From the NCBI GenBank assembly GCA_030374765.1, contig JARGXX010000115.1:1116001-1180000 (forward strand): a stretch of DNA of 64,000 bases, written 5' to 3'. This document shows, one piece after another, positions 1 through 49,231 of this stretch. Positions within the stretch are counted from its first letter, which is position 1, and every line of letters starts with the position of its first letter. Both the position numbers and the translations under genes were made by a program. The DNA comes from Agarophyton chilense. Its lineage: Eukaryota > Rhodophyta > Florideophyceae > Gracilariales > Gracilariaceae. The notes under the pieces were generated by a model. That model ran no database searches and was not told the DNA's origin. It was given only the letters and a program-made list of their open reading frames with translations.

Positions 1-161
1 TCTTGGAAGAGGAAGCACCGTCGTGAAGATTTGTTGTAGTGGTCCTCTTTGGAAAGGGTGGAATTGGTTTTTTTTTTGTTTTGTGTTACGTCATCCGTTC
101 TCCGGGAATCTCGTGATCGAATTTCATCGTTACCCCGAATCGTCGGTGTCGTGTCTGCAGC
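1..161 (+). other. Element 1 leader between 5' LTR and gag
   Basis: Untranslated leader of element 1. It holds a T9 run at about 69-77 and no LTR end or primer binding site, so those lie further left. The first ATG with a long frame is at 162. Confidence 0.5.
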
Positions 162-1926
162 ATGTCGCTGACTACCCGTGGTTCCAGGACTGGATCGAAC
201 CGTCAAGCGGATTCAGTGCCCCCGGCCCCGCCTAGGTCGAGGAGCTCAATTCCCGAAGTCCGGAACGATTCCGGTATCGATCCGGACACTCGGAGATCAC
301 CTTCAGTGGTTTCAGGTCCTCGAGAGGTCGTGGCTGTGGGCCCAGCTCCAGTGGTGGAGACCCCCTCAGCAGCACCGCGAAGTCGGGCCGACCCTGAATT
401 ACAGCGCCTGGAGACTCGAATCGATATCGCCAACGCGGCTCACGTCGAGCTCCTTCAGGAGGTTACTACCCTCCGCCGCAAGGTGGAGGACGCCCAGGTG
501 CGGGGAGTCGCCGATGACCTTCGTACCCTGAGGAGGGATGTGAACTCCCTTTTGGAAAGCTTTGGTACCCCTGGGGTCTTTATCCAGGAGTACCGGAGCC
601 TCGTGGAGGAACACCGCGTGCAAGCGGAACGCTTCCGAGCTCGGCTGGACACCCTCGAGGCAATTATCCGTATGGACTGGATTAATGGAGCTGAAGCCGA
701 CGAATCCTCTCTATCGGTAGCTGCTATCGTACCGCTATTACCGGTTGGATAACCCTTCGGGAGATCGAACATCCCGCGGAACGGGTAAGGTCAAGGACTA
801 CATCAAAAGGCTGAGCATCACCCTACAGAAGAGGGAGTTCACAGGAACAGACCCAATTCTGGTGCTCGATTTCCTTGCGAGGTTCGTCCAGGAGGCTGAC
901 ATCCTCGGTATGAGTGAAGCGCAAGCGTATCTTGCATTACCCTATTTCTTAAAGGGGATGGCTGAAGACCAGTTCAACTCCGTCCGTGGATCATCCCGAG
1001 CCTCGGAAGGGGGAGTCACGTACTGGCCCGAAGCGGTGCAGTACCTCTTGAGGTCATACGCTACTGGAAATGCGATTCAGGAAGCAATCCTTGCATTAAG
1101 GGATACGCGGCAGAAGCCGATGGAAACCGAAACGGTGTATTCAACTGGCTTGAATAAAGCGTTTCACCGATGCGGAAATGTATTCCCCGCCTACGAGAGA
1201 TGCACCATGTTTGTGGGTGGTTTGGACTCCTCGATAAGGGCATTGGTTGCCCGACATCGGGAAGAGAAGCGCAAGCTGACCTACTTGGAACTGGTTCAGT
1301 ACGCCCAGGCTGAGGGGGATACTCTCCGTGCCCGGCAGAACCGAAAGAGTCGGCCGACACGTGCACTCCTCGCCGATGGAGGTAACTCGTCCTTGTCACT
1401 CGCAGGAGGCCCTGCCCCTATGGGGGTTCATGATAACATTCACTTCATGGGAAGTAACCCCGAATCTATGGGTACGTCTGAGTTGCCGTCGACATCCGCT
1501 CCGACTACGGATGAAGACCCTGCGCTCTATACCCAAGCACGGAGGGTGCCAGCCGCATCGCTACCTTTTGCGAATACCGCTGCTCGGTTCTCTCGCCCCG
1601 GATGGAGGGATACAGCACCACGTCGCGTGGATTCACGTCCACAACCGAACCCGGCAGAGCTGATTTGCTATTTGTGTTACCTCCGTGGTCACAAAGCACC
1701 AGACTGCACATTTCCCCTGCGGGAGGGTTCACGAATTATCGCTCAGTACGAGACTCTGACCCCTGAAGAGAAAGCTCGAGTCCCTAGTAGGTCCTATGAG
1801 GAACAAAAGATACTCCGAGCTCACCTTACTCACAGGGATACAGAACTTGTACCCGCGAACGGGGAACAACCGGTCCCCTTCGAGGCAGCTGCACCGAATT
1901 CGGTGGGGTCCGCTTCGAAAAACTAA
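162..1926 (+). pseudogene. gag: Element 1 Gag, two overlapping frames
   Basis: Gag of element 1, the particle-forming nucleic-acid-binding polyprotein. The ATG at 162 opens a 196-codon frame with a Pro/Ser/Arg-rich start and a helical, coiled-coil-like middle; it stops at 752. The capsid-like part continues in another frame, open from 721 to 1926. The sequence just inside the second frame (YRYYRLDNPS) matches element 2 Gag (YRTYRLNDRS), where it lies in one frame with the N-terminus, so the change in element 1 is best read as a single indel; programmed frameshifting is not excluded. A CCHC zinc knuckle, C-X2-C-X4-H-X4-C, sits at 1666-1707. The capsid region shares FTGTDPILVLDFL-type spacing and an RCGNVF motif with element 2. 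Confidence 0.88.
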
Positions 1927-1928
1927 AC

Positions 1929-4900
1929 TTGGGAGTCTCCCCTGCGGGAGGGGCGTCTTCTAAGCCGGAGTTGAAGACGCCCGAGGCGCTCCAGCTTCGC
2001 TCCCCAGCTGTGACTATCCTTTCAAGGAGAACGGCTGACACCGACGTTAACTCGGGATACTTTAGTGTCCTCCGTCGCCCGTGGATACGGTCCCGTAATC
2101 TCCGTATTCCGGATCGAGTTATGGTAATGGCCAAGCGGAATTATAAAGTATTCGCCGACTTCGGCCTGTCCAACCAGTTTTTGGTTCGTCAAATATCTGT
2201 CCTGGATACAGGAGCCGCTCCTAACTTAATTCATGTTGAATTGTTACCCCCGCTGCTCCGGGTTCAAGTTCGTACCGGTCCACGTTTGGATATCGCCGAT
2301 GCGAACAACAACCCGCTACGGACACTGGGTACAATTTCCCTCATGGTGAGGTTAGGCTCCTATCTCGTTCAACTAGAGTTTATTGTATGCAAGTCACTTG
2401 CAGCACCAGTCATACTGGGTTGTGACTTTTGCGACCGCTTCGTGGAAGCCATCCGTCCTCGGAATAGAACTGTGGAACTCGAAGACGGGTCTACGATCCC
2501 AATCGTTCGTAAACCCTTACAGGGCGGGACCGAAAGCTCGGGAAGAGGAGAAATCTCAGGTGGAGAAGATGCTTAAAGCGGGCGTAATTGAACCTGCCCA
2601 GTCCGCTTGGGCCTCACCAGTGGTGTTAGTTCCGAAACCGGATGGATCGTGGCGTTTCTGCATCGATTACAGACGCCTGAACGAGGTAACCATTAAGGAT
2701 GTGTATCCGATCCCTCGGATGGACTAATACATCCACTCCCTTGGGAGCGCTACTGTTTTCTCTACCCTCGACGCCAATTCGGGCTACTGGCAAGTCCCTA
2801 TTAGGGAGGAAGATCGAGACAAAACGGCTTTCGTGTGTCATCAAGGACTTTTCCGATTCCGGAGGATGCCTTTTGGGTTGACAAATGCCCCCGCAACGTT
2901 TCAACGGGCGATAGACATTCTGTTGGCTCCCTTCAAGTGAGGGACGTGTCTAGTGTATTTAGACGACATTATTGTCTTCTCCAACAACCTTGATGACCAC
3001 CTCGAACACGTCAGGGACGTAATGAAGATACTCCGCGACGCGGGAATCACCTTGAAACTCAAGAAGTGCGTGTTTTTCACCGATTCGGTTAAGTATCTGG
3101 GTCATATCATCCGTCCCGGACAGCTTTCAATCGATGAAGTACGAGTGAAATCCTTGAAGGAAGCAAAACACCCGAAAACTCAAACGGAGTTGCGATCCTT
3201 CTTAGGTCTGTGTAACGTGTATCGCCGATTCGTCCCGAACTTTGCGGATATTGCCACCCCCCTCAACAGGCTTCTGACGAAGGGACAACCAGTTGAACTG
3301 GAACCTTTTGGCGACGCGGAAGCGTCTGCCTTCACGGCACTGGTGAATGCCGTAACATCACCGCCAATCTTGGCTCTACCCAATCCTGGGCTCCCTTACG
3401 AAGTGGACACCGATGCTAGTGCAAACCAAGCAGGGTGTGCACTGTTCCAATCCTCTGAGGATGGTGAACGTCACCCTATTGGGTACTGGTCACGTTCCCT
3501 GAATGTCCATGAAAGGAACTACTCGGTCTCCGAGAAAGAATGTTTAGCCGTTGTGTGGGCCTTGGCTACACTTCGCCCCTATCTCACGGGTACTCGTTTC
3601 AAAGTCCATACGGACCACGCATGCTTGCGTTGGCTCCTGGAGATCTTCGAACCCTCGGGCCGCCTTATGCGCTGGCGTCTCCGACTGTCGGAATTCAACT
3701 TTGAGATCCTGTACGAGAAAGGGAAGCTGAACACTCAGGCTGATGCACTATCCCGCTTGGGAACCACAGCGGAAACGGAACCCTACGAGGATGATGAAAT
3801 CCCATGTTTTATGGTATCGGACCTCGAGGGAGGAGCTCAACCGCTGACGGATGATGTTTGTGACGATATACTCGTCAACGAGAGTCTGGATTCGCCGACC
3901 GGCTCTTTTATACCTATCTCTCCAGAGGAGATGATACGCGAGCAACAGCTCGACCCATTCTGTACACGGATTCGGGCTCGCCTCAACGGAGGATTTCAGT
4001 TACCTTTCGAGGACGACGATCAGGGTTACCTAATCAGGACCGTTGGACCTCGCCCGAGGATAGTGGTGCCGCACACCCTATAACAGAGGGTATTACACCT
4101 CACTCACTATGTGAAGGTTGGCGCCTACCCCGGGGGAAGAAAACTTTACCTCACATTGAGAAAGGACTTTTACTGGCCGGCAATGGCATTCGATTGTTAC
4201 GCCGTCAGACGGGCCTGCGCCAATTGCGCCAAGAATGACGTCAAACTTCGGAAGCACTCTAAGAAGTTGACGCTGTTCCCGGCACGGGCTCCACTCGAAT
4301 TCGTGGCCATAGACATCCTAGGGGAGTTGATCAGGACGCCCCGAGGTCATCGGTATCTGCTTGTCATTTCTGACAGATTCTCTAAGCTAACGAGAACTGT
4401 GCCGCTGACGCGGATCACCGCCGCTACCGTCGCGCAAGCGTTCGTGACCCATTGGGTGTTCGTATATGGACCTCCGGTGCAGTTGTTATCCCACAACGGA
4501 GGGCAATTCGCATCAAAGTTCTTTCAGGATGTATGTCGAATCCTTGATGTAAGGAATTTATTTGTTACTACGTATCACCCTCAGGGGAATAGCCAGGTGG
4601 AGAGGTTTAACCGCACGATACTCAACGCTTTGAGATCGTATGTTGCGGATCACCCCAAAAATTGGGACTTGTACACAGACGCTATCACGTATGAATACAA
4701 CACCCAGGTACATCGGGTTACATCGTTATCCCCATTCGAACTGGTACTGTCGAGGACACCGCCGCCGGTCGCCATCGAGGCTCAACCAACGCTGTCGACG
4801 TACCCGTCACCGGGATTGTACCGAGAAGCCTGGAAGGAGTGGCTTACGAAGATGGTGCCGATAGCCCGGAAAGCAATGGACAAAGCTCAACGCGCCTACA

Positions 4901-5778
4901 AGAAGGACTTTGACAATCGGGTTCGCAAACCTCTACCTCAGGTGGAGCCCGACGAATTCGTCTTCCTTCGAAAGGAATACTACAATCCTGAAAAGGAACG
5001 TAGGCACAAGCTTTCGCCAATTGTGGACGGACCCTATCGTGTGGTTTTTGTAGACCTGGACATGGTGGTATTGGATATCGCTAACCGCCACGAACGGATC
5101 TCCAAGGACGGCATCACACGAGCGCCCAACCCAAATGTGGAAGTGGTGTCGGCACCAACGCCCTCCACAGGGGATGATTCAACGGAAGTTAACCCGTCAG
5201 GCGGAGATTCGAACACCCGCCCCGTTATACTTCCGCACCCGGACCGTGGTTTAACCGACCTACCGGAAACTTCGGATACTCCCGAACCTGGGCCCGCTCC
5301 CTCAAGGGCCCAGTCAACGAACTCTTACAGAGTTACTCCCCCACCGGAGGTAATCAAGCCTCCTGGCTCTCCGCCTAAGGAGGGGCAGGAGGACTTAGTT
5401 CCTTCGCAGCACGATATTTCGGCGTCAGCCAGTCGCCCTAACAGGGAATCTAGTTCTCACAGTGAGACGGCGAGCCCGACCGAGCCGGCGACAGATAAGT
5501 CACAACCCCAGCGTATGGGTAGCGACATCACCGCCGACCCAGCCGAGCACGACGTCAGAAAAGATGACGAAACCCCGCCTAGGGAGAGTCGTGTGGAGAA
5601 CTCCGCACCCGAAACGGCTACAGAGCCGACGATCACCCGCCGCCGCGGACGAGACACTGAGGTGTCGCACACTCAAACCCCGCTTTCTCGGGACAGAGCT
5701 GTGTCAGCGGACCCGCACGGGGAAGATCTCGACGACGAGGTTGACCAAATTTGGCTCTCCGTTATGGAATGGGAATAG
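1929..5778 (+). pseudogene. pol: Element 1 protease-RT-RNase H-integrase, disrupted
   Basis: The protease frame runs 1929-2576 with the retropepsin DTGA motif at 2205-2216 and an ILG-type flap end. At about 2505-2525 reading jumps to another frame and directly enters the RT N-terminus; the linker present in element 2 is missing. RT has NAPATFQ and YLDD (2956-2967). RNase H follows with DTDAS, TDHACLRW and ADALSR. In-frame stops interrupt it at 2725 (TAA, after the PRMD motif), 2938 (TGA where a Trp codon is expected beside the YLDD strand) and 4081 (TAA, before the integrase zinc finger). The integrase second zinc-binding His appears to be Tyr (AYPGG). The core keeps the first Asp (FVAIDILG) and the Glu (4600-4602) but has His at the second Asp (4492-4494). 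The C-terminus to 5778 is Pro/Ser/Glu-rich. Confidence 0.93.
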
Positions 5779-5950: not shown

Positions 5951-6042
5951 CAATCAAAAGGCTCTGACGACCAACCGTCGCGCAAACCGCCTCACTGAGC
6001 CCATCAAAAGGCTCTGACGACCAACCGTCGCGCAAACCGCCT
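5951..6042 (+). repeat. 50-bp tandem duplication in element 1
   Basis: Two near-identical copies (5951-5992 and 6001-6042, period 50) of a block containing TCAAAAGGCTCTGACGACC lie between the integrase stop and the chromodomain ORF. Confidence 0.9.
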
Positions 6043-6327
6043 CCATCGCACGGCGCGTTGCACAAGAGCAACCTTCGTCCCCGTAGCTCGGGTTGACGTT
6101 GAAGTCTTACCCCCCTGAGATTGGAGACGCTACCGCGTCGCGGTTTCTCAACCGTCATGGAATCTAAGAACACCGTTGCTATCGGGAAGATCTCAGTTTT
6201 AAGAAGAATCTAAAACTGGGCCGTTTTGACTCCGTAAACGGAAGTTACGACGTAGCCCACAGGCCACTCGGCGCCGTTTGGACGAAGTGCTGAGACCCGC
6301 TCGCAACACGGAAAAGAACCCACCGGG

Positions 6328-6618
6328 GTGTGTCTAGACCCTAAGTTGACACCCTCAAGGGAACTAGAGCGTTCCAAGATGGAAGAGAAGCCCGAACAGG
6401 GAAAAGTGTACCCGCAGGAATTCGTTATCGATCGCATCGTGCGTCACATCTACACCCCCGAGGGAGAAGTTCGCTACCAAGTTCAATGGTACGGATTCTC
6501 GCCTGATGAGGATACAGTGGAACCCATTGAGCACCTTCCGAGTTCTAAGGTTTTATCCTATCACCGACGCGCTCGGGTAACCTTGCCTCCAAATCTGGAT
6601 CGTGCCCAAGTCGGGTAA
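6328..6618 (+). CDS. Chromodomain ORF of element 1
   Basis: A 96-codon frame, same phase as integrase but 550 bp after its stop. Residues about 30-80 form a chromodomain: FVIDRIVRH, YQVQWYGFSPDEDT and EPIEHLPSS. In chromodomain retroelements this module sits at the integrase C-terminus and helps choose chromatin targets by reading methylated histone tails. The usual TWEP core is TVEP here, so one aromatic-cage residue is lost. In element 2 the module is still fused to integrase and keeps Trp. Either the ORF became separated by decay of the linker (which includes the 50-bp duplication), or it is expressed on its own. The ATG at 6328 is the only upstream Met in frame; an internal start at 6379 is possible. 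Confidence 0.75.
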   Translation: MCLDPKLTPSRELERSKMEEKPEQGKVYPQEFVIDRIVRHIYTPEGEVRYQVQWYGFSPDEDTVEPIEHLPSSKVLSYHRRARVTLPPNLDRAQVG

Positions 6619-7019
6619 GCCACCACGGGAACTGGTGTGGATGGGACCTTGACGTGAGGAAGATGTTGGACCTCTGAAGAGGAATTGAGGAGAGTATCCC
6701 GAATAACACTTATTGAGAGGGAATGTCTACTGGCCCTCGGCCTAGCGCCGTTAACCGGGGAACACAGCACCAGTTATCGGGACAGTTTATGATAAAAAAG
6801 GAAAAGAAGACCCACGAAGTGGAGAAGAAGATTAAGAAGAAGATTGGACCCTAGGAAGGGAAGAAGATGAAGACGAAGATGAAGAAGATCCTAAGAAGGA
6901 ATGAAGAAGATGAAGTAAAAGTTAAGATCCTAGGAAGGAAGAAGAAAAGAAGTTATGCAAATATCAGAAGTTTACTATTGTCTCCAAGCTATGGACTCTA
7001 CAATTGCCCGAAGGCGGAA
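6619..7019. other. Purine-rich 3' region of element 1
   Basis: Non-coding spacer between the chromodomain ORF and the antisense ORF stop. Bases 6786-6965 are a GAAGAA-rich low-complexity tract. The ORFs predicted in it are low-complexity Lys/Arg/Glu strings. Confidence 0.6.
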
Positions 7020-8915
7020 CTACGAAAAGCCCGAGGAGGGACCCGCCCCACCGTTGGGATTCTGACCCTGATGGTACGCCGAGGCGAAAGGCAACATCTG
7101 GCTCACATCCGTCATACCCGGGGTAATCGGAATGCCCGCGTTCACGAGGCCTTGTCGCACACTATCCGCTTGCGGAGTGGCAACCGGCGCCTGCGCAAGG
7201 GTGTTCACACCCCACCCGGGGAGAGCAGATGGACCGCCACTGGATGCATTCGCCGCCGCAGCTGAGGTCATTCCCACTGGTTGGAAGGGTGCAGATGGCT
7301 CCACAGGCAGTACTCCATTAGGAGCTGGCATGTCGTTATCAATCGCTGGATCGTCCAGGTCTACTGGAGGCTCGTACTCGTAATCGTCGGTATAAATGAA
7401 CCCCGTCGGGTGTCCCACCGGCATCGGTCGAGGCGAGTCCATCAGCGACCGTGCTTGCGACGCGCTGATGCGAACCCATTCGAAGGGATTGTAATAGACC
7501 CAGTTACCGGAGCCCGGATCGTACCGGCCAGGAGACTTGTCTCGCGCGGATCCTTCCCCTGCGGGCTGATTTTCCACTGGAACTCGATCCCATTGGGTGT
7601 TGTCGATCACGTCCAAGATTGGATACAGGTCCTGCACGTTGCTGACCGAACCCAACGCTGGGACAAGGTCGATCTGACGCATGATGGTCCGTAGCATCGG
7701 AGGAATATACCAGATACGGAAATGGTCATGAGCATCCCAGAGGAGGTGCGCCGCTACGCGGGCTGCCCACTCGGCTGCAACGAGGGCCCAGTATCCCGAG
7801 TTCGGGTCGTGCATCAAACGAGACCCGATATAGTAGATGCACGGGGGCAGTTCAGCAAAGCACCCTCGGGGGACCTCGACCTTACTCCACCAAGCTGGAA
7901 GGGGCACGAATCGCCCAACCTTCGCCGTGTTACGGATACGGCCCAGTTCCACGTGAGGAAACGGGAAAAGGAACCCGAAACGGGAGCGCGAGCTGCGCTC
8001 GAAGCGCACGCGTCGATCGAACCCATACTGGGTAAACTGCCGTTGAAGGTACCTGAATTCAGCCCGAAGGATGGGACGACTCCATTGGAGCATATCTTCT
8101 CGGAGAGGAAAACCCGGTCCGCGGAACTCGGCTTCGGGAAAGGCTGCCAGGTTATCCCCGTAGGAGACCTCACCGTACGTTCGGTAATAGGCGACATCGA
8201 ACCCGTACTCCGGGGGAACCAGATGGTCAAAGCGTGACCTCTCCAATCGCTGGTAGGCCAGAGCCGCCATCGCTGCGCGCGCCTTGTCCAGGGACTCCCC
8301 GAGACCGCGGTATAGATACTGAGGCTCTATGGCTACCCGCACCCTCCAATCGGGAGAACATACAACCTCGACAGGTAGGCCACCCGGCAATAAGCCGTCC
8401 TCCACGTAGGAGTCGATGAGCTCATCGTCGCGAACCGCTGTCGGATGGAACCACGGAGCGCGGGAATAAATCACCGGATCGGTAAGGGGACTCCACCTTC
8501 GAAAGGATTCGTTTGAGATCCAACCTCTGGAGTTTGCTCCGAAGGGCATCGCATGAGCGGAGTTCCACGCCACCGCGTTAATGTCCAAATTCTCCTGAGG
8601 ATGTCGGTTGCTCGCCGAGGGGGAAGGTTCGGTACCTGACGGAGCCGCATCAAAACCGGAGAAATATCCACCCTGCTGGGGAGCTTCGTTGTCCGCCGGC
8701 GCGGAGGCCGACGGCCCCGAGAGTGGGTTGATGACGTATGGGTTCATTCCCTTGAGAGGGCTGGTTGAGACTGCTGTTGCGAGAAGTTGCTTATCGCCGA
8801 AAGTCGGAGGAGTAGAAGAAAGTTGTACCGATGTGCCGGTTTTGTGGCGATCCTCAGAAGTGGTGAAGGACCCCATTGGGAGAGAAGTATATATAGTGAC
8901 TGGAAAGCGAGACAC
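7020..8915 (-). CDS. Antisense ORF of element 1, unknown protein (631 aa)
   Basis: A 631-codon frame with ATG at 8915, opposite in strand to gag/pol, lying between chromodomain and polypurine tract. Its start is 42 bp from the 3' LTR, so an antisense promoter in the LTR could drive it. By simple arithmetic (61/64 per codon) an open run this long is not expected by chance, and it is intact while gag and pol of the same copy are broken. Residues 1-130 are Ser/Pro/Gly/Ala-rich. About 150-400 is a folded-looking block rich in Tyr, Trp, Arg and Phe (AAEWAARVAAHLL, NTQWDRV, SGNWVYYNPFEW). The C-terminus is Pro/Ala/Gly-rich and disordered-looking. There is no membrane segment and no family I recognise. 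Element 2 has a collinear, diverged counterpart at 25461-27269. Confidence 0.75.
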   Translation of the reverse strand: MSRFPVTIYTSLPMGSFTTSEDRHKTGTSVQLSSTPPTFGDKQLLATAVSTSPLKGMNPYVINPLSGPSASAPADNEAPQQGGYFSGFDAAPSGTEPSPSASNRHPQENLDINAVAWNSAHAMPFGANSRGWISNESFRRWSPLTDPVIYSRAPWFHPTAVRDDELIDSYVEDGLLPGGLPVEVVCSPDWRVRVAIEPQYLYRGLGESLDKARAAMAALAYQRLERSRFDHLVPPEYGFDVAYYRTYGEVSYGDNLAAFPEAEFRGPGFPLREDMLQWSRPILRAEFRYLQRQFTQYGFDRRVRFERSSRSRFGFLFPFPHVELGRIRNTAKVGRFVPLPAWWSKVEVPRGCFAELPPCIYYIGSRLMHDPNSGYWALVAAEWAARVAAHLLWDAHDHFRIWYIPPMLRTIMRQIDLVPALGSVSNVQDLYPILDVIDNTQWDRVPVENQPAGEGSARDKSPGRYDPGSGNWVYYNPFEWVRISASQARSLMDSPRPMPVGHPTGFIYTDDYEYEPPVDLDDPAIDNDMPAPNGVLPVEPSAPFQPVGMTSAAAANASSGGPSALPGWGVNTLAQAPVATPQADSVRQGLVNAGIPITPGMTDVSQMLPFASAYHQGQNPNGGAGPSSGFS

Positions 8916-8943
8916 CAGCGGCTCGGAATGTTCTTCCTCGTCT

Positions 8944-8957
8944 TAAGGAGGGGGAGA
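8944..8957 (+). other. Polypurine tract of element 1
   Basis: AAGGAGGGGGAGA abuts the LTR start. This is the expected plus-strand primer position for reverse transcription. Confidence 0.85.
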
Positions 8958-9880
8958 TGTAGAGCAACGCCCAGTTAGGGCATGCTTGAAGATGCAACTC
9001 ATAGAATGAGGGTTGAACCCTCCGAGGGTTATGACTATGATCCCCTCTAAGGTGTGCTTAGGTGGCACGGTTTTCTGGTTAGAGCTCGCCTATGAAGGGA
9101 AGATTCGGATGGCCCATGGTTGGATTGGCCCCGTGATACACGTGGCTTAATTTCGGCACCGATTTTCGGATATTTGTTAGAACGTTGGACTTTTGGGCCC
9201 TGACAGTGGGATCTCCACGTGTATGGCCCTGAGCAGGTGTGCACTACTGTACTTAGTAGAGTTTAGTTAGTGGGCCCTACTTATGGAGACGAGATCTGAC
9301 AGTCCGAAGCTCAGAGTAATTGGGAACCAAGGTTGGTCTTCGATACCTTTAGAGGTTCTTCGTCGCCATCGTTTCGGCCTTACAACCCGGAACGGGCTCT
9401 GGTTAGCACCGCCTGCGTAGGGACACAAATCCACTTGGAGAGTGCCCACGTTTGGGTTCCGTGCAACCACCCCCTTGGGACCGCTCAGACGACCTGCGTG
9501 CACGATACCCCGTGGGGGTTCTGCTTACTTGTTGCGTGCTTTTTGTGTTTCCTTTCGAGGACATGTTTTCGCCCCTGTATTTGGTTTCTTTTGTTGTTTC
9601 GCCCCTTTTCTGGTTCTCGGGTCCGGTGCCTGTCAGTGCCCGACCCTCGCCCCGTTTTTCCTCTTCGCCGGATTTTCCCCCATTCTTTGGGATACCCATA
9701 CCCATTCCCGACCCAACGGTTTCTACCCCTCACCTCCGTCGGTACTGCCGGGATCCCCCGTGGGAGTTACACCCCACACTACGGGTGGAACGGAGGGCTC
9801 TGTCTCTGAGTCTGCCTCCCCCAGGGAGCAAGGCTTCGAACACCTTGAGAGCACTTCCCGTCGGCGGAGTTTGCTCCACA
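8958..9880 (+). repeat. 3' LTR of element 1
   Basis: 923 bp beginning TGTAGAGCA and ending TGCTCCACA; the ends are imperfect inverted repeats (8 of 9). It is the same family as the solo LTR at 48006-48919, which fixes both borders by alignment and by that copy's target duplication. Open frames inside it (for example 9333-9809 and 9452-10084) recur in the solo LTR but have no recognisable product. Confidence 0.95.
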
Positions 9881-9885
9881 TTCGT

Positions 9886-17484: not shown

Positions 17485-18023
17485 TGTAGTATAGTGAATC
17501 CGAGCGGGTTGTCAGGTAAGAAGGGCGTGGTCAGGACTGAGTGCAAGTGGCCTGGTCGCACACGTGTGCGAAGATGGCACACCGGACGAACATGTACAGT
17601 AGGTTAACACGTAGCATAGTTGTAGGTAGTTGGCGTCCTCCACCCCGTGATATTTCCGCCACGTGGGTGCAAGCGCCTCCACGGACTGTAATGCGGGTTG
17701 CAGCTCGGAGGTGCACACTACTTATGCACCTCCGCTTCCCGCCACCCTCCAACCTAGTCTAAGTATCGTTTCTAAAGCAGACCTGAAGCTTTACTCCGCA
17801 CGGAATATCTACAGGTTTACAAGCTGTTCGGACTCTTCGCGCGTACCTCGATCGCGCCTGACGTTACCAACCGCCTAGTTTCCCTACGACCGCCCGGTGC
17901 TGGCGCTCGTCTCCACGTGTCACCGTTCCCCGACCGGCCTCGTGTGACACGCACGCCCCGCTTACGGACTCCGCACGGATCGCGCCTCTAGGAAACTTAC
18001 ACGCCTTTCGGCGCTATCTCACA
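17485..18023 (+). repeat. 5' LTR of element 2
   Basis: 539 bp, TGTAGTATAG to GCTATCTCACA. Its right border is fixed by the adjoining PBS and by alignment with the 3' LTR. Confidence 0.96.
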
Positions 18024-20375: not shown

Positions 20376-23300
20376 AGGCGCACGACTCTCCTAGGCCGGA
20401 AAGCCTCACCGAAGCGGATTACACGGGTACGACCTCCGACCCGACGGAGCGACGCCCTGTAGACACTTTGGATGAAACCGATCCGGCCGCGCCAGGAATG
20501 TTGTTAAACAGTTTGCACTATAAAGTGAATTTCTCCGTCGGCTTCTCCCGATCGGTAATGTTTCCACTTACAGGTGTAGTGGACACTGGCGCGGGTTCGA
20601 ACCTCATTCACGAGCGGCACCGTCCTCCCCACTGGCGAGGGCACTTGCAACCCCGGTCGGCGGATTACGGATGCGTCTCGCAACCGAATGGACATATTGG
20701 GGGTCGTACCCCTCCTTGTCCAGCTTGGAGCGCTGACCGTCCGGGTTCAGTTTATGGTAGCCAGCAATCTCGCTGCCAGCTGCATACTCGGCACGTCTTT
20801 CATAGAAAAGTACGTTTTGGCGATACTACCTCCGAAACGAATTGTTGTACTACGCAACTCGCCCCCCGTGGCGATTCAATCCGCGTCCGGGCAGAGCTCA
20901 ACCCCGTCCGGGCAATCTATGCTACCAGCCCAAGCTACCGTTCGGGAACCTCCGTGGAACAAGATTCGTGTCGCCCGCCCGGTTTCTATACCACCAATGT
21001 CGGAATCTCATGTATTGGTAACCTCCCGGGTTGCTGGACTCATGTTTATCCAAGGACATCACCGCTCTGCTCATAAAGAAGAGTTAACTCTCTTGGCTAA
21101 CGGGGTAATGGAAATCCGACCGGATGTGGCATTCTACGTTCAGCTAGCTAACTTTTCCGATCGTTCGGTTCGCCTTCACAAAGGCAAAATCATCGGCCTG
21201 GCGTTACCCTCCCCCATCGCATTAATAACACCCGACTTTCCGTCTCGGAGCGACGAAACTAAGGAGGGGGGCCCCAACGACGCATCTATTTCCGTTTCGG
21301 ACGTGTCGAAGCCGACCGGACAAGAGCCAACGCCTGATGCAGAAGACGACTGGATCGCAAAGGTCCAGTTGTCCTCCGAATTCGAGTCCGAACGAGAAAG
21401 GGTCATTGAGCTCCTCAAACCGTTTCGGGACATGTGGAACGGCCATCTGGGCCGTATCGCGGCAGCGAAGCACAGGATCCAATTGGAACCTGGTACAAAG
21501 CCGATATACCAGATGCCATATCGTGTGGGTCCGGCGCGTCGCGAACTCGAACGCAAGGAGGTCACCAAGCAGTTGGAGCTCGGTGTAATTGAGCCTTCCT
21601 CGGCCGAGTGGGCCAGTCCGGTTGTGTTCGCTCAAAAGAAAGAAGGAAGTTTACGCTTCTGTGTGAACTACCGTCGACTAAACGCAGTCACCGTTCGGGA
21701 TACTTACCCATTACCGAGAATGGACGAATGCATCGATTTTCTTGGAGAAGCAAAAATATTCTCCACCCTGGACGCAAACAGCGGCTATTGGCAGACCGAG
21801 GTGGATGAAGCCGACCGGGATAAAACAACGTTCACGTCTCATATAGGACTGTACAGGTATGTTCGAATGCCGTTCGGTTTGAAGAACGCCCCCGCCACAT
21901 TTCAACGGGCCTTGGACATCATACTGTCCCGCGTCAAGTGGCAATACGCGTTGGTCTATCTGGATGACGTTATAATCTACTCCCACACGGTTTTAGAGCA
22001 TTTCGACCATGTTCGGACCATTCTTTCATCACTCCGATCGGCCGGTATCACTCTCCGTTTGGATAAGTGTCAATTCTTCAGCGGTACTGTCGACTATTTG
22101 GGTCATGTTATCCGCCCGGGCAAGCTGCAGGTCTCCACAAGGACCCAAGATGCTATCCGAGCGGCTAAACCCCCCACTTACCAAACCGAACTCCGTTCGT
22201 TCTTGGGACTGTGCAACGTCTTCCGACGTTTTGTTAAAAGCTTTGCCCGAATTGCGGCCCCGTTGACCAGCAAGCTCGAAAAGAACAAACCGTTCAACTT
22301 CGAGACCCTGACCGATACGGAGCACGAGGCCTTCGAGAAACTTTGCCAACGGTTAATACGTTCCCCCATTCTGGCTATCCCACTTCAAGATATGCCGTAC
22401 GTCCTGGATACCGACGCTTGCGATAAGCAAGTCGGTTGCGTCTTATTACAGAAGCAACCGGACGGTGATTTACTCCCAATCGGATACTGGAGCCGCTCGC
22501 TTAATAAGGCTGAGCGGTCATATTCCACAACCGAACGGGAATGCCTCGCTGTCGTGTGGGCAATACTGCACCTCCGGCCGTATCTCGAGGACGCCCGCTT
22601 CACCCTCCGTACGGACCACCACGCATTGAGGTGGATACTCAACCTGGCGGACGCTTCCGGACGGCTGGCTCGTTGGCGGCTCCGTCTCATGGAGTATGAC
22701 TTCGATATATTCCACCGGCCGGGCATAAAACACCAGGCCGCTGACGCGCTATCGCGAATCCAGACGGACGGAGAAGACACCACTCCCCTGGACGAGGAGG
22801 TCCCATGCCTACTCCTTGCGGACCGCGCGGAAGAGAACGACGACCGCGTTGCGGACATCACCGTCGACGGTGAGGTCAGGACAGACGCTGTCCTTGACTG
22901 GCACGACGGACAGAACCCGATCGGCTGCTCCGAAGTCATGTCCATCGTCGAAGAGGAGACGAACGTCCGACCGGTCACTCTGGAAGAGCTCATCCGAGAG
23001 CAGGCGGAGGACGAGTACTGCAAATCCGTGCGGAAGGACGTTGGTAATGGGATTACCCTCTTCGACATCAACCTTTACGGAGGTCTCATCCGTCGCTCCC
23101 CGCTGGACGGAGCCCTACAGAAGGTGGTACCCCGCTCGCTGGTTCCGCGCGTCCTCTATCTTTGGCATTATCCGCGCCTGGAAGGACACTCGGGCGGGAC
23201 TCGAATGTACTCCGAAGGGACTTCTACTGGCCGCAGATGGCTAATGAAGTTTATCAAACCGCTCGGGATTGCCGCTCGTGCGCCGCAATGCGCGGCACCC

Positions 23301-24570
23301 AAAACCGCTCACAGAACGGCTTAAGCTCTTTCCCGCTGCGGGGCCACTTGAGTTCGTGGCAATGGACATCGTCGGTCCATTTCCGAAGTCAGTCACTGGA
23401 CATGAGTACATCCTCGTCATCACCGACCGGTTCACAAAGCTCTGCAGAGCAGTTCCGCTACTATCCACAACCGCCCCGGTGGTGGCCCGGACGTTCTTAG
23501 AGAATTGGGCTTACCCGTACGGAATTCCGAACTATTTGCTCACCGACAACGGACCACAGTTTGTCTCGAAGTTCTTCGAGGAGATTTGCAGGGCGTTAGG
23601 TACGAAACACGTCACAACGACGGCGTACCACCCTCAGGCGAACGGACAAGTCGAACGGTTTAATAAGACGCTCGTCCAGCGCCTACGGCACTACGTTGCG
23701 GATCACCAGTCTAACTGGCACGCGTATGTACAGCCGCTAACGTACGGTTACAACCTTCAGGTACACCGAAGCACGGGCACCACGCCTTTCGATTTGGCCC
23801 TGACCCGCGTACCCCCGAACGTCGTCCTGGACGAACCCAGCTCCGCCACGGACCCAGCAACACCGACGCAGCCAACCCCGGGACAGATGAAGCACTACAC
23901 ACTTAGGCTTCTCAAGGCTACGCTCCAATCTGCTCGGAACCGCCTCACAAATGCGCAACAGCGCTACAAGGCGGACTTCGACAAATCCGTACGGGCAACC
24001 CCCACATTTGCGGCCGACGAGGAGGTCTTCCTTGACCGTCCTACGACAACTCCGACCGGTGACGTGCTCGAGGAGCAAGAACGTACCTCAGGGAAACTTC
24101 TGCAAAAGACCACGGGGCCCTACAAAGTCATTTCCGCGATGGACAGCACGGTCACGATCAATGTTGACGGGATACACGATACCGTCAGCATTGACCGCGT
24201 CACTCGCGCCCCCGCTCGGATACAACCCGTTCCGGTTACAACAGAACGCGCCCGTACGGTAACTTTTGATCCGGACGGTCCGTTCGCAGAGGAACCCGTG
24301 GCGGACACTATCTCGCCCCCTGCTGGAAATAATCACCGAGCGGAGCTTTCACATCCCGATTCGGCTAACTCTTACTCTACCCAACTAGACAGCATTGGCA
24401 TTGTCGAGCGAATCCTCGACCATGGGCTGGCCGACGACCCTCAGCACGGTCTTGTTTATCGCGTACGCTGGTACGGTTGCAGTGCTGTGGAAGACTCTTG
24501 GGAACCTCCCAAGAATCTTCCGCAACACTTTATTAGCCGATATTGGAAGCGCAAATCCCGAACGGCATGA
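20376..24570 (+). pseudogene. pol: Element 2 protease-RT-RNase H-integrase-chromodomain, frameshifted
   Basis: Protease begins in a frame open through 20376-20640 with active site DTGAGSN (Asp at 20582), then shifts frame at about 20615-20650. The following 878-codon frame (20688-23324) holds the protease end (ILGTSF), a linker of about 220 residues, RT (WASPVV, NAPATFQ, YLDD at 21957-21968) and RNase H (DTDACDKQ, TERECLAVVWA, TDHHALRWI, ADALSR). Two further shifts near 23210-23325 pass through the integrase zinc finger (HYPRLEGH, then CRSC in another frame). The core is intact in the last frame: Asp 23365, Asp 23545, Glu 23653 with 35-residue spacing. The chromodomain at about 24388-24561 ends the protein (YRVRWYG, DSWEP), keeping the cage Trp. 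Confidence 0.95.
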
Positions 24571-25460: not shown

Positions 25461-27269
25461 TCACTTTCCCCGCTTTCCGGACGGAGATGACGCTTTCGAG
25501 ATACGGGAACTCACCGGAAGGGACGCAAAGTCCCTAACGCTACGACGCCCACCGCGGCGGCCTCCTCGCTGGCCTCTCAAAGCACCCCTGGCAGCAACTC
25601 CAGGAGCTGGTACCGGCGACGGGGAGCCCAAACGACGTCCGGACGGCTGAAAGAGGGCACTAACCGCCGTACCATGCGCGACCCTCCGAACGGTACGACT
25701 CAGAGAGAAAAGAGGCCCGGTCGGTACAGAGGCCTCGTCCGTCGGACCCCAGCCAGGAGTGGGCCCTTCGGTTTCTTCCTCCCCGCGCGGCGACGCAGCG
25801 GCCTGAGCCGCCGCCCTCCCTGTCGGTGAGTGCTCAGCATCCCCCACCCGGTCCGTCATCGATGCACCCGCCGCGACCTCAGCCGCCAGGACGCCGGAAG
25901 CCCCAGGCGCCGCGGAGAATGACACGGACTGTATTGCCGCTCGGACTCTCTGCAGCCACTCATGGGCGGCGTCGTTCGTACGCCCCACCGACAGGTCCAG
26001 ACGCCCAATAAGCTGGGACACTGTCGCGCCGCCCGGTCGGGTTGCCATGTCTCCAAAGGCATTGATGCGCTGCTGGAGGAGCTCAACGCAGACAGCACTG
26101 ACATATGACATCAAGTCGACAGTACTGACCATCTCCCCGCTCAACAGGCTGGTGAACGCATCCGCGTGGGGCACCCATACCTCAGCCGCCATTTCTAAAG
26201 ATTCGACGACCGACTCGGGGGGCTCTTCGTCATTCGCCCGGCAAACTTCCTGCAGCGTTCTCAAAGCGTCACGCTCCTCGCCGCCGTCCGATGCGGATAC
26301 CTGCACACCGGCATCTACCGTTCTCGGGGGACTTTCCGTTTGCATGCCCGTTTCGGTAACGGCCCTCTGGACCGTCGACGGTTCGTTCGCCTGAAGGGGT
26401 AGATCCGCATCGGCAATGGGCCCGTCACTGTCCCCACTTCGCGAATGGGGGTCCATGAATCCGAGCGGAAAGTAATCAGTGACGTCTTCGAACTCCCATG
26501 AAGGCCTCTCCGCCTCCGGGATCAGGCGATGGACGATGGGATTGTCACCGACGCGGAGGATGGGCATTGTGGGAAAACCGCCCGACCGGGGTTCGAACCA
26601 CAAGAAACCAGGAGTCGACCTCCAGTCCGTCATGACGGATAAAAAGAGCCACCTTCTCGCTTCTTCGGGCGTATACCGCGTTCCGCGGAGCACATTTCGC
26701 AGCCCCATCTGCATGATGACGCTGACTAGACCGTACGGTAACGGTAGTAACCTTCCCAAACCAGGGGGCTCGCGCGGACCAGGATCCCTTCTGTACAAGT
26801 TCAGCCGCGGATCCTCCGTTTTGGTGAAGACCCTCACACCCTCCGTTACGGCCTGAAGAAATGACATGAGGGCGCATACCGCCCACTCTGCGTACGCTAC
26901 GCGCATGATCCGTTCGGCTATCGACGTCCCACTAAGAACATCGTCGGAATAGTAGGCCAGAACTGGCGGGGTCATCACGGACAGATCTCGGGGCACATCC
27001 ACGTCGGGCCAATTCTCCGGAGTCCTCACGTACAAGTTTTCCCGCTCGGACACCGGAACGTCAAAGAACTCCACGTTATGCCACCCGTACATGAAACCAC
27101 CCAAGCCCGACCGGATCCGCGCTTCGGTCGCGACATGATCGCCCCAGCGGCGTTGGTTCAGGAAATAGAGCCCGTCGTACGGAGGGGAAAACATCACAAG
27201 CCCCAACGGATTACCGTGCGGATCGGGAATACTCTCATCTGACAGCATCTGCGTAACGAGGTCGCGCAT
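25461..27269 (-). CDS. Antisense ORF of element 2, unknown protein (602 aa intact part)
   Basis: A 602-codon uninterrupted minus frame from ATG 27269. The same frame continues upstream to an ATG at 27947 but with stops at 27639 (TGA), about 27500 (TAG) and 27285 (TAA), so an ancestral product near 830 aa has lost its N-terminus. It aligns loosely but collinearly with the element 1 antisense protein: RDLVTQML against DDELIDSYV; LVMFSPPY against VEVVCSPDW; VAYAEWAVCAL against LVAAEWAARVA; VMTDWRSTP against NTQWDRVP; GFLWFEP against NWVYYNP. The folded half is N-terminal here; residues after about 290 are acidic/Ser/Gly-rich and disordered-looking. No catalytic motif or membrane segment was recognised. 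Position and orientation match element 1 exactly. Confidence 0.7.
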   Translation of the reverse strand: MRDLVTQMLSDESIPDPHGNPLGLVMFSPPYDGLYFLNQRRWGDHVATEARIRSGLGGFMYGWHNVEFFDVPVSERENLYVRTPENWPDVDVPRDLSVMTPPVLAYYSDDVLSGTSIAERIMRVAYAEWAVCALMSFLQAVTEGVRVFTKTEDPRLNLYRRDPGPREPPGLGRLLPLPYGLVSVIMQMGLRNVLRGTRYTPEEARRWLFLSVMTDWRSTPGFLWFEPRSGGFPTMPILRVGDNPIVHRLIPEAERPSWEFEDVTDYFPLGFMDPHSRSGDSDGPIADADLPLQANEPSTVQRAVTETGMQTESPPRTVDAGVQVSASDGGEERDALRTLQEVCRANDEEPPESVVESLEMAAEVWVPHADAFTSLLSGEMVSTVDLMSYVSAVCVELLQQRINAFGDMATRPGGATVSQLIGRLDLSVGRTNDAAHEWLQRVRAAIQSVSFSAAPGASGVLAAEVAAGASMTDRVGDAEHSPTGRAAAQAAASPRGEEETEGPTPGWGPTDEASVPTGPLFSLSRTVRRVAHGTAVSALFQPSGRRLGSPSPVPAPGVAARGALRGQRGGRRGGRRSVRDFASLPVSSRISKASSPSGKRGK

Positions 27270-28340
27270 ACGACCCTGGTAGTCTTACTCCTCCGGGCAA
27301 CGGAGGAACGGCATGTCACAGCTGCCTACCGTTTCGTCCCCCTCCCGACCGGTTATTCGCGGAAGATGCCTCCATCGCGCACGCCACGCCTCGTGGCGCG
27401 TCCGCTTCGGATTCCGGCCGGTGCGTTCGAAAAACGTTCGCTGCTTCGGTATTGCGCCGAACCGCCGCGCGTCCAAGCATCCGCTCCAATCGTCCCCCTA
27501 GATCAACGTCTCGACCGAAAACGGGGGCTCTTTCCCGGTCGGCCCGCTCCTACGGCCCTGCGGTCGTCGCCAGCGGTGGTCGTGCTCCTGCCCGGGTAGC
27601 GGGTTTTGAAACACACCGGGCGAGCCCGCTCCGGGTGTTCAGTATCCGAACGGAGGCATCAGCACGCCCGCACCAACACGCCCCGCTATCTGCGGCTGTA
27701 AGGCACCGAACCGGAGAAACGAAGGCATGGGAGGGTTTCCCGACGACACCGGTAAAACCCCCGCCTGGCGGGCATCCCAAACCGCGCAGCCCCCGCTTTG
27801 GGCACCGAACGGAGGCTCTACGGGCGCTGCAGCGGGCGCGGTTACCGCTACCCGTCGCGGTATTGGTATATCTGCCAGGGCTGAAGTTGTCTGACGCCAC
27901 GCGTTCTCCTCTCGGTCACGGTTGACAGCGCTGTTGTTGTCCTCCATGGTTGAACCAAACGGACACGCGGCCTCTGAGTCCGTACTCTTCGGAACTGCCG
28001 CAACGGTCCTCTCTGGAGTCTACCCGTCACTCCGCCCGGGACATAGACGTGCTTAAATACACCACCGACGAACGCTTGCCGGCGGGCGCGATTTGACGGG
28101 CACTACCGAACGGCTGCGATATAACGTCTACTTCCGGACGGCTGCGCTATTACAGGCCTTTCCGAGCGGCTGTGGCACAATGCGGATCTCCGAACGGGCG
28201 CGTATAACGCGACCGGTCGCTTCTAGCGCGTTTCGTGTCGGTCCGCGAACGTAACGCCGTGTCCGCTCGGTGCGCGCTCAACCAGCTACCGCCTAGGATA
28301 TTGGCGCTCCGAGGACGTCGCGCGCTCTAGGAGGGGGGTC
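27270..28340. other. Element 2 distal 3' region and polypurine tract
   Basis: Holds the broken N-terminal part of the antisense frame (27285-27947), a 28-bp tandem repeat (28079-28217) and the purine tract GGAGGGGGG just before the 3' LTR (28331-28338, followed by TC). Confidence 0.6.
28079..28217. repeat. 28-bp imperfect tandem repeat
   Basis: The core CCGAACGGCTGCG (with variants) starts at 28106, 28134, 28162 and 28190, an exact 28-bp period, with a degenerate unit on the left. It lies about 150 bp upstream of the 3' LTR. Confidence 0.75.
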
Positions 28341-28903
28341 TGTAGTATAGTGAATCCGAGCGGGTTGTCAGGTAAGAAGGACGTGGTCAGGACTGAGTTC
28401 AAGTGGCCTGGTCGCACACGTGTGCCAAGATGGCACACCAGACGGACATGTACAGTAGGTTAACACGTAGCATAGTTGTAGGTAGTTGGCGTCCCCCACC
28501 CCGTGATATTTCCGCCACGTGGGTGCAGGCACCACCACGGACTGTAATGCGGGTTGCAGCTCGGAGGTGCACACTACTTATGCAGCTCCGCTCCCCGCCA
28601 CCCTCCAAACAGTAAAGGGTAAGCACCACCGTCCTAGTCTAAGTATCGTTTCTAAAGCAGACCTGAAGCGTTACTCCGCACGGAATATCTACAGGTTTAC
28701 AAGCTGTTCGGACTCTTCGCGCGTACCTCGATCGTGCCTGACGTTCCCAACCGCGTAGTCTCCCTACGACCGCCCGGTGCTGGCGCTCGTCTCCACGCGT
28801 CACCGTTCCCTGACCGGCCTCGTGTGACACGCACGCCCCGCTTACGGACTCCGCACGGATCGCGCCTCTAGGAAACTTACACGCCTTTCGGCGCTATCTC
28901 ACA
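28341..28903 (+). repeat. 3' LTR of element 2
   Basis: 563 bp, same ends as the 5' LTR. It carries an extra segment of about 24 bp at about 28608-28631 (around AAAGGGTAAGCACCACCG) not present in the 5' LTR. Confidence 0.96.
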
Positions 28904-47045: not shown

Positions 47046-49231
47046 TACAGTGCGTTTCAAAAACATATCCCTTCTTCGAATCGGGCCAAAAATGTTTTCT
47101 GTACTGTAAAGCCAATTTTTCACCGAATGAAACCTTTTGAAGTGCGAAACCTTGTTTCTTAAACTTATTCTTTATACGATATAGAGTTTCATTATGACTT
47201 GTGTAACGCTTATGTCTCGCCAAAAATATATGAAAATTATTAGATTGGACCACAAAGGCATGATCTCAACTTCTATAGCGCAAAATCAAATAAAAATCCC
47301 AAAAAAGACTTAATATAAAACAATCTGTTTGGTATGATTTCAAGCAATGTTTCAGCCATAACGCATTTTTTCTAACCCAAAAACGCGTGGAAGAAAAAGT
47401 TATCTTTTCTGTGATACGTCATCGTGAAAGAATACTTGCAAAAATACTGTATTTGAATGTAAAATGTTCTAAAATATGACGCAACTTAAAAAAGTCAAAA
47501 TCGGGTAAACCATACAACAACATCAAACCATTCTTTTTAAAAATGTACCATAAACGCAACCGTGCCATTTGTTTCTCAGAAAAGACTCATTAAAAAAGAG
47601 TATGAAGAAGATATGTGTTTAGACCAAAAAATGTGAATAAGGACAGACCAGGTTTCTACTGCTTATATTAGCACGATTATTTCAAAACAAATTTAAGCTT
47701 TGTAAGAACTTTCATTGGTTTAAAATCTGAGATGATTTTAGATGACATAACTAAAGAAACACCAACTAGAATGAAGATTTTTAAAGCTGTTGTAACTAAA
47801 TCACGTTATGATAATGTGTTAAAAAGATATGGGATACCGTATTCCTTTTAGCAGTATGAAGCGCTTGTAAAAAAGTAAAATGTTAAGAAACAGTATATGA
47901 ATGGTTTAAATAGGACTGATACGGATGTCCCATGACGAATTTTTGATGTAAACATTAATAAAAACACGTATGGAGTGCTATATTAGAAGATTTATGTGCA
48001 TATTTTGTAGAGCAACGCCCAGTCAGGGGATACTTGAAGATGCAACTCATAGAATGAGGATTGAACCCTCCGAGGGTTATGAGTATGATCCCCTCTAAGG
48101 TGTGCTGAGGTGGCACTGTTTTCCGGTTATATTTCGCCTATAAGGGAAAACTCGGATGGCCCATGGTTGGATTGGCCCCGTGATACACGTGGCTTAGTTT
48201 TGGCACCGATTTTAGGATATTTGTAGAACGTTGGACTTTTGGGCCCTGACAGTTGGATCTCCACGTGTATGGCCCTGAGCAGGTGTGCACTACTGTAGAG
48301 TTTAGTTAGTGGGCCCTACTTAGGGAGATGAGATCTGACAGTCCGAAGCTCAGAGTAAATGGTAACCAAGGTTGGTCTTCGATACCTTTAGAGGTTCTTC
48401 GTCGCCATCGTTTCGGCCTTACAACCCGGAACGGGCTCTGGTTAGCAACGCCTGCGTAGCGACACGACTCCACTTGGAGAGTGCCCACGTTTGGGTTCCG
48501 TGCAACCACCCCCTTGGGACCGCTCAGACGACCTGCGTGCACGATACCCCGTGGGGGTTCTGCTTACTTGTTGCGTGCTTTTTGTGTTTCCTTTCGAGGA
48601 CAGGTTTTCGCCCCTGTATTGGGTTTCTTTTGTTGTTTCGCCCCTTTTCTGGTTCTCGGATCCGGTGCCTGTTAGTGCCCGACCCTCGCCCCGTTTTTCC
48701 TCTTCGCCGGATTTTCCCCCATTTTGTGGGATACCCATACCCATTCCCGATCCAACGGTTTCTACCCCTCACCTCCGTCGGTACTGCCGGAATCCCCCGT
48801 GGGAGTTACACCCCACACTACGGGTGGAACGGAGGGCTCTGTCTCTGAGTCTGCCTCCCCCAGGGAGCAAGGCTTCGAACACCTTGAGAGCACTTCCCGT
48901 CGCCGGGTTTTGCTCCACATATTTAACAGTTCAGTACAGTTTTTCATTCGAAAATTTGTATCACAAGATACGGTGACAAACTTATCTCTAATTTAAATCA
49001 TTCTTTTATTAAATAACTGATAAGACACTCTTTTTGTGTCATAAGGGTGAAAGAAGCGAAAACTAACTACTGAAAGCGCATTATAGAAAATATGTCTGAC
49101 AAAAGAATATATTTTTAAAACAGTATTTTGAGTTGATGTTTTTCATGTGTTTTTTTTATTGAGTGTAATTTAGTCGGAAAGGCAATTCACGAAATCTTTG
49201 TGCAAGGGATATGTTTTTAAAACAGACTTCA
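47046..49231. mobile_element. Second Tc1-like copy, split by a solo LTR
   Basis: The left end after TA (47046-47047) reads CAGTGCGTTTCAAAAACATA; the right end at about 49205-49229 read in reverse gives AAGTCTGTTTTAAAAACATA. A second motif lies about 100 bp inside the right end (near 49104-49126). Subtracting the inserted LTR and its duplicated 5 bp (919 bp) leaves about 1.26 kb, nearly the length of the neighbouring 1283-bp copy. The right TA is CA. No transposase motif is readable inside; short frames at 47700-47850 are unidentified. Confidence 0.6.
48001..48924 (+). repeat. Solo LTR of element 1 family, TATTT target duplications
   Basis: LTR 48006-48919 (914 bp), TGTAGAGCA to TGCTCCACA, closely matching 8958-9880 along its whole length. 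Flanked by TATTT at 48001-48005 and 48920-48924, so it arose by recombination between the LTRs of a full insertion at this site. Confidence 0.97.

Follow-up and report, generated by a model that had tools for sequence, protein, structure and literature searches.

A putative accessory gene, read antisense to pol, in diverged families of Ty3/gypsy LTR retrotransposons

The stretch of DNA analysed here (64,000 nucleotides, hereafter the window, to which coordinates refer unless a locus is named) carries element 1 (E1) and element 2 (E2) beside host genes that encode a Mad3/BUB1 protein, a seryl-tRNA synthetase and a Ctr transporter with a weak DUF6535 match. This set of host genes suggests a fungal genome and, through the DUF6535 match, possibly a basidiomycete one. 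E1 is a Ty3/gypsy chromodomain element with an antisense ORF between pol and the 3' LTR. Its 5' LTR stands a short way upstream of the window (L067, G000:C115:1115013-1115935) and is 97.8% identical over 923 bp to the 3' LTR (8958..9881, plus strand). On the same strand follow gag-like and protease-like ORFs (745..2576; weak Pfam matches, below cut-off), the C-terminal part of the reverse transcriptase with RNase H (2953..4083), the integrase (4111..5778), a chromodomain piece (6256..6615; PF00385, E 3.5e-08) and a polypurine tract recognised by eye (8945..8957). In the window copy gag/pol is split over several ORFs, and the pol frames in other genome copies of E1 are open for up to 1,559 codons. 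A second copy of the E1 LTR, apparently solo, is found at 48006-48920 and is 95% identical to 8958-9881.

The E1 antisense ORF (7020..8915, minus strand) reads opposite to gag/pol and comprises 631 codons from a GTG without an internal stop, just as the original prediction had it. It takes up most of the interval that runs from the chromodomain piece to the polypurine tract, and the distance of 42 bp to the 3' LTR given for it proved exact (8916-8957, a gap that includes the polypurine tract, with the LTR beginning with TG at 8958). The first ATG is codon 14 (8876-8874), from which 618 codons remain; across 30 copies this ATG is present in 27 and an ATG at codon 57 in 29. The motif TATATA, kept in 24 of the 30 copies, stands about 20 bases upstream of the first ATG, and because this distance is so short the true start of the antisense gene is uncertain. 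The ORF is indeed intact in a copy whose gag and pol are broken, but this is by itself weak evidence of selection because the LTRs of E1 are still 97.8% identical.

E2 has its 5' LTR at 17485..18023, reverse transcriptase, RNase H, integrase and chromodomain in two ORFs at 20688..24570, a polypurine tract (by eye) at 28329..28340 and its 3' LTR at 28341..28903, all on the plus strand. An ORF of about 600 codons had been predicted in the same place and orientation as that of E1. This ORF is real (25461..27269, minus strand), but it is only the C-terminal part (602 residues) of a longer gene (25461..27947, minus strand), which in the window copy, read from its ATG (27947), meets three in-frame stops ahead of the 602-codon part. 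Elsewhere in the genome the gene has 852 open codons, 828 of them from the ATG. A search with the E2 ORF returned 11 near-full copies at 93-100% identity with open frames of up to 852 codons, further copies, split or partial, at 76-96%, and a large number of matches at 31-40%.

A candidate TATA box, TATTTAAG (28052..28059, minus strand), stands 112 bases upstream of the E2 antisense ATG. It occurs at -112 in all ten E2 copies in which the ATG was located (11 loci were looked at), and it is unchanged in the diverged copies L045, L047 and L050, each of which is short of exactly one 28-bp unit. Upstream of the TATA candidate, four CCGNNCGG sites are arrayed at an exact 28-bp spacing (28106..28197, minus strand); of two additional sites, one lies upstream of this array and the other falls between the TATA candidate and the ATG. 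The six sites in this 380-bp stretch were equalled by no Markov shuffle out of 2,000, for a motif that was chosen after seeing the sequence. CCG..CGG pairs presumably resemble the binding sites of fungal zinc-cluster factors. The gene had been described as LTR-driven, a view that is not supported; in E2 the best promoter candidate falls outside the LTR, in the gap that separates the polypurine tract from the start codon. A sequence candidate for a promoter of the gene's own was recognised in E2 only. In L045, the end of an E1-type LTR (by eye) lies inside the promoter region of this E2-family copy, which may be read as the insertion of one family into the control region of the other.

The matches of E2 at 31-40% led to a third family, E3 (L061 and L062; 65 match rows), and to a degenerate fourth, E4 (L064-L066); a 161-residue piece of E4 used as query gave 150 matches and revealed a fifth, E5 (L082; 61 match rows). 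In all, more than 200 copies of the antisense family were scored in the 80-Mb genome. By alignment, no fewer than five diverged families of elements, E1-E5, encode a homologous antisense protein. For E2 and E3 (hhalign E 3e-19) the comparison puts homology beyond doubt. The proteins have proline/serine/alanine-rich ends of low complexity and an aromatic-rich core, conserved over about 250 residues; in E1, the core held in common with E2, E4 and E5 is encoded at 7578..8000 (minus strand; approximately residues 306-446).

E1 appears as the outlier of the family. Its direct alignment with E2 scored 80, and that with one of the E4 pieces, which involves the same E1 residues as the E2 match, scored 68; none of 1,000 shuffles was as high in either case. 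Direct comparison of E1 with E3 did not rise above shuffles (the better E3 copy was beaten by 10 of 400 and by 328 of 1,000 in two runs), nor did that with two of the three E4 pieces; direct hhalign runs of E1 with E2, with E3 and with both returned probabilities of 14, 0.5 and 9%, and E1 was not lifted above shuffles by a seven-row profile that left out E5. Because of these failures a naive claim of direct E1 homology is weak, and the weakness is overcome only by E5. The E5-E1 alignment scored 148 over about 400 residues, against 46 +/- 6 for shuffles, and E5 scored 303 with E2, 220 and 213 with E3 and 147 with E4 (shuffle means 31-47, E5-E1 included; none of 300 shuffles as high in any pair). 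E1 compared with a profile of E5, E2 and E3 gave an hhalign E of 1.5e-6 and a probability of 90%. At the level of sequence similarity, the bridging family E5 settles the link of E1 to the rest. The two window proteins, for which an alignment no better than chance was conceivable at the outset, thus align directly (none of 1,000 shuffles as high) and clearly by way of E5; the profile-profile comparison that had been suggested for them is weak when done directly with hhalign, but clear through E5. Three of the four short matches on which the original prediction relied are in register in the family alignment, while the fourth, SPDW/SPPY, is not.

The position of the gene, antisense and between pol and the 3' LTR, is shared within the family. 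The LTRs of E1 and E2 were located at the window, and for each of E3, E4 (as remnants) and E5 the single copy read has pol beyond the antisense stop, encoded on the other strand. In L062, the edge of the E3 3' LTR and a polypurine tract, both recognised by eye, precede the open frame by about 200 bases and its first ATG by about 400. The order reverse transcriptase-RNase H-integrase with a chromodomain after the integrase was found in E1 and E2, and in E3 from RNase H on; the E5 copy has an integrase match only, with no chromodomain match. The identities of the antisense core and of the integrase correlate only loosely across family pairs (Spearman 0.6, p 0.088, for nine of the ten pairs), so a single vertical origin of the antisense gene is likely but not proven. 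Three further observations concern single copies. In L061, about 445 bp (708-1156) are inserted into the E3 antisense ORF, within its N-terminal part. The same stretch, inverted and at 89% identity, precedes the ORF in L062 (464-905) and is perhaps a small mobile repeat. Beside an E4 relic, L065 has a 258-residue open frame without a Pfam match (1-774, minus strand).

The first reading of the sequence had recognised no protein family, and the searches bear this out: no Pfam match passes the cut-off and no PDB match is significant. Pfam, searched at E up to 10 with HMMER filters that drop most matches above E 0.1, returned no family for the antisense proteins of E1, E2, E3 and E5 or for piece L066; among the antisense proteins there was likewise no match to Transposase_28/TRP28 (PF04195). 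A match of PF04160 to the E4 piece L064 (E 0.0095; 16.4 bits, with the cut-off at 25) was taken as chance. PDB sequence searches yielded insignificant matches only (E 0.26 or worse), and a search of IMG/VR yielded no relative of the antisense protein. AlphaFold models of the two window proteins, a check proposed together with the original prediction, had a mean pLDDT of 30.7 and were useless for reading a fold. Basic stretches are found near the C-terminus in E2 (RRRVR and KRRK) and E3 (PPKKRAR), and none in E1; because E1 is without a basic cluster, the proposed nuclear location is not extended to its protein.

At least 70 near-full-length copies of the E1 ORF are present in the 79.8-Mb assembly, the window's own and 69 at 93-95% identity, and 40 of the 70, as counted from the match table, are free of internal stops. 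Because only the best candidates were scored, 70 is a lower bound and is biased towards intact copies. In order to look past this bias the E1 integrase was used as a second query, and it matched 78 places. At nineteen of these an antisense ORF is listed 1.14-1.29 kb downstream, always on the strand opposite to the integrase; no same-strand pair occurred. For the first 14 unpaired integrase copies, about 400 bases were taken at the predicted position of the ORF; one position fell off the contig and 13 were read. ORF DNA was found in all 13, two of which have deletions in or beside the ORF: L080, with a plain internal deletion, and L077, in which the ORF starts about 1 kb too early, meaning that sequence is missing in or beside it. 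In the other 11 copies the ORF DNA is at the expected place (seven open over the stretch, three with a stop, one with a frameshift). Far from being absent from most copies, DNA of the ORF thus accompanies every E1 copy sampled, and it was for E1 that presence in all or most copies, a trait of the plant aORF-3R genes considered below, was found.

That the antisense gene is kept by selection across diverged families is supported by dN/dS between diverged copies, which lies well under 1, although within the young E1 copies the ratio is 0.69-0.85. Comparison of E2 with three diverged sister copies (dS 0.27-0.54) gave omega values of 0.24-0.29 in the N-terminal and 0.36-0.47 in the C-terminal part of the gene, against 1.06-1.70 in the other frames of the same strand, and the differences between E2 and one sister are distributed over the codon positions as 41/41/99 and 32/29/63. 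The mirror frame of the other strand also has low omega in this comparison with one sister (0.28 and 0.37), and it contains 11 stops in E2. The sister copies share a deletion that breaks the frame in the antisense core and so serve as a natural control: among three of them omega is 0.79-1.04 in the N-terminal and 0.51-0.76 in the C-terminal part, and this rise, clear in the former and partial in the latter, indicates constraint before the frame break and its easing afterwards. The E3 copies gave an overall omega of 0.47, with 0.15-0.32 for codons 201-500 and 0.56-0.58 towards the end; codons 1-200 stand at about 1. Among the 30 E1 copies, which are the best-scoring ones and hence biased towards intact ORFs, the observed/expected N/S amounts to 0.85 among singletons and 0.69 among shared variants, with smaller classes scattered between 0.57 and 1.23 and values of 0.98-1.14 in codons 1-160; stops number 12 against 20.4 expected among singletons, and 1 against 4.1 among shared changes. 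The changes among these copies are mostly post-insertion. As the N/S of the other strand's wobble-sharing frame is nearly equal (0.86 for singletons, 0.73 for shared variants), the E1 set alone proves little about selection, and E1-only dN/dS was dropped as a proof, being too weak and drawn from the biased sample.

Genes of this layout have precedents. In passages of PMC7264820 and PMC11963269, ancient antisense ORFs between pol and the 3' LTR are described for maize Grande (gene23), rice RIRE2, Silene Retand and Phaseolus PvRetro13, and these plant aORF-3R genes are said to occur in most copies of their elements. By a passage of PMC7264820, gene23 of Grande is transcribed from a promoter upstream of the gene and its protein is nuclear; excerpts of both papers place tandem repeats often in the pol-3' LTR interval of Retand, and part of PMC11963269 reports that every recent Retand element studied has antisense coding regions, and proposes a regulatory role. 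The functions of antisense accessory genes in LTR retrotransposons are still unknown according to passages of the same two papers (PMC7264820, PMC11963269). The genes described here are like the plant aORF-3R genes in layout, antisense reading and, for E1, presence in most copies, and the repeats beside the gene in Retand and the upstream promoter of Grande recall the candidate array of E2; they differ in that the aORF-3R hosts are plants, that Retand belongs to a non-chromovirus lineage and that a TRP28 match is lacking here.

Zhao et al. reportedly described, in 2011, Boty-like retrotransposons with an antisense gene, brtn, in Botrytis and Sclerotinia. Compared by description, brtn is alike in being an extra antisense gene of an LTR element between pol and the 3' LTR, and differs in having been reported from those two genera. 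A passage of PMC7264820 names Boty as a fungal case of an antisense ORF, and one of PMC8365987 cites brtn as an additional antisense gene. HBZ and APH-2 of HTLV are, in excerpts of PMC11963269 and PMC7264820, antisense-encoded nuclear proteins, and the HTLV antisense promoter sits inside the 3' LTR (PMC7264820, in part); the likeness, again by description, lies in the antisense reading frame and, on the side of HTLV, the nuclear product. The open-licence literature searched held no basidiomycete case of such an antisense gene, which does not prove absence. The layout matches that of the antisense ORFs of Grande, RIRE2, Retand and Boty, as would, by analogy, the likely role. The antisense protein family itself appears new as far as the searches reach.

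An open coding frame, homologous between families, constant in position and under selection, is what the computation establishes. We hold it to be reasonably probable that this is a genuine accessory gene of Ty3/gypsy chromodomain elements, with a probable antisense promoter and a product that is most likely a trans-acting nuclear regulator; use of the promoter, nuclear site, action in trans and regulatory role are what we infer. Transcription of the gene would probably begin at an antisense promoter located at the element's 3' end, in E2 at the candidate internal TATA box behind the 28-bp CCGNNCGG repeat array rather than in the LTR. The product would most likely act in trans in the nucleus and regulate the element through transcription, RNA handling or integration-complex access, an action pictured like that of the aORF-3R proteins of plants and the antisense proteins of retroviruses. 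Such a regulator, acting in trans and probably nuclear, is favoured because the position, the antisense reading, the promoter candidate and the adjacent repeats resemble those of the plant aORF-3R genes. Very doubtful is the more specific idea that the antisense protein binds the 28-bp CCGNNCGG sites of its own element, balancing antisense against sense transcription and thereby copy number, with intact copies policing broken or competing ones.

Alternatively, the antisense unit might matter as RNA, its complementary transcripts feeding RNAi or blocking the sense RNA, with the open frame being secondary. Any antisense transcript would be able to pair with the 3' portion of the genomic RNA, E2 offers a candidate promoter, and protein and dsRNA roles of antisense units can coexist, as a passage of PMC7264820 states. 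We regard this as unlikely, however, since the codon-level constraint between diverged copies and the protein similarity across families both need a protein. When all six frames were compared, the top cross-family score fell in the antisense frame in five of the five pairs tried; the scores of the antisense and the best other frame were 303 and 84 for E5-E2, 213 and 82 for E5-E3, 397 and 121 for E2-E3, and 148 and 57 for E5-E1, the contrast being thin for E2-E1 only (80 against 73).

It is distinctly unlikely that the product is a structural or packaging partner, an env-like third particle protein that happens to be encoded backwards. Env-like ORFs do occupy the same pol-3' LTR interval, though in sense orientation (PMC7264820, in part), and the E1 protein without a basic cluster would suit such a function; antisense coding, however, prevents expression from the genomic RNA, and no Pfam family, env-like or otherwise, matches above cut-off.

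A passenger, that is, a gene of the host or of another mobile element that was captured long ago and has since brought little benefit, seems very unlikely. Constraint among the E1 copies is weak, and a sister group of E2 (L045-L051, seven places) has multiplied without an intact ORF. The members of this group have in common a frame-breaking deletion of the antisense core (junction letters were seen for six of them). Splicing was rejected as its cause: by eye there is no GT-AG at the junction on either strand, and because the junction sits on a shared CCGGTGT a simple deletion is indicated. The fact that the group still multiplied implies that the protein is either supplied in trans or dispensable. 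L045-L051 is possibly a non-autonomous lineage. Against a passenger stand the retention of the gene in five diverged families and the omega of 0.24-0.47 between diverged E2 copies. Long antisense open frames can arise opposite compositionally biased coding sequence, but a chance or composition-driven frame is virtually impossible here and was ruled out by the selection, by the E5 homology and six-frame scores, by the fact that no sense gene lies opposite and the antisense frame is the sole stop-free one in E1, E2, E3 and E5 (9 to 33 stops in the others), and by the longest open frame in 6001-8957 (2,957 bases), which at 640 codons exceeds the 306 reached at most by 300 mononucleotide shuffles.

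An accessory gene with a probable antisense promoter and a trans-acting product thus remains our preferred reading. One protein family is found in at least five element families of one 80-Mb genome, with more than 200 scored copies and measurable selection, with a broken-ORF sister group as a natural control and with a candidate dedicated promoter in E2; the function of such antisense genes is therefore testable. The finding also gives annotators a reason not to class such ORFs as hypothetical host genes.
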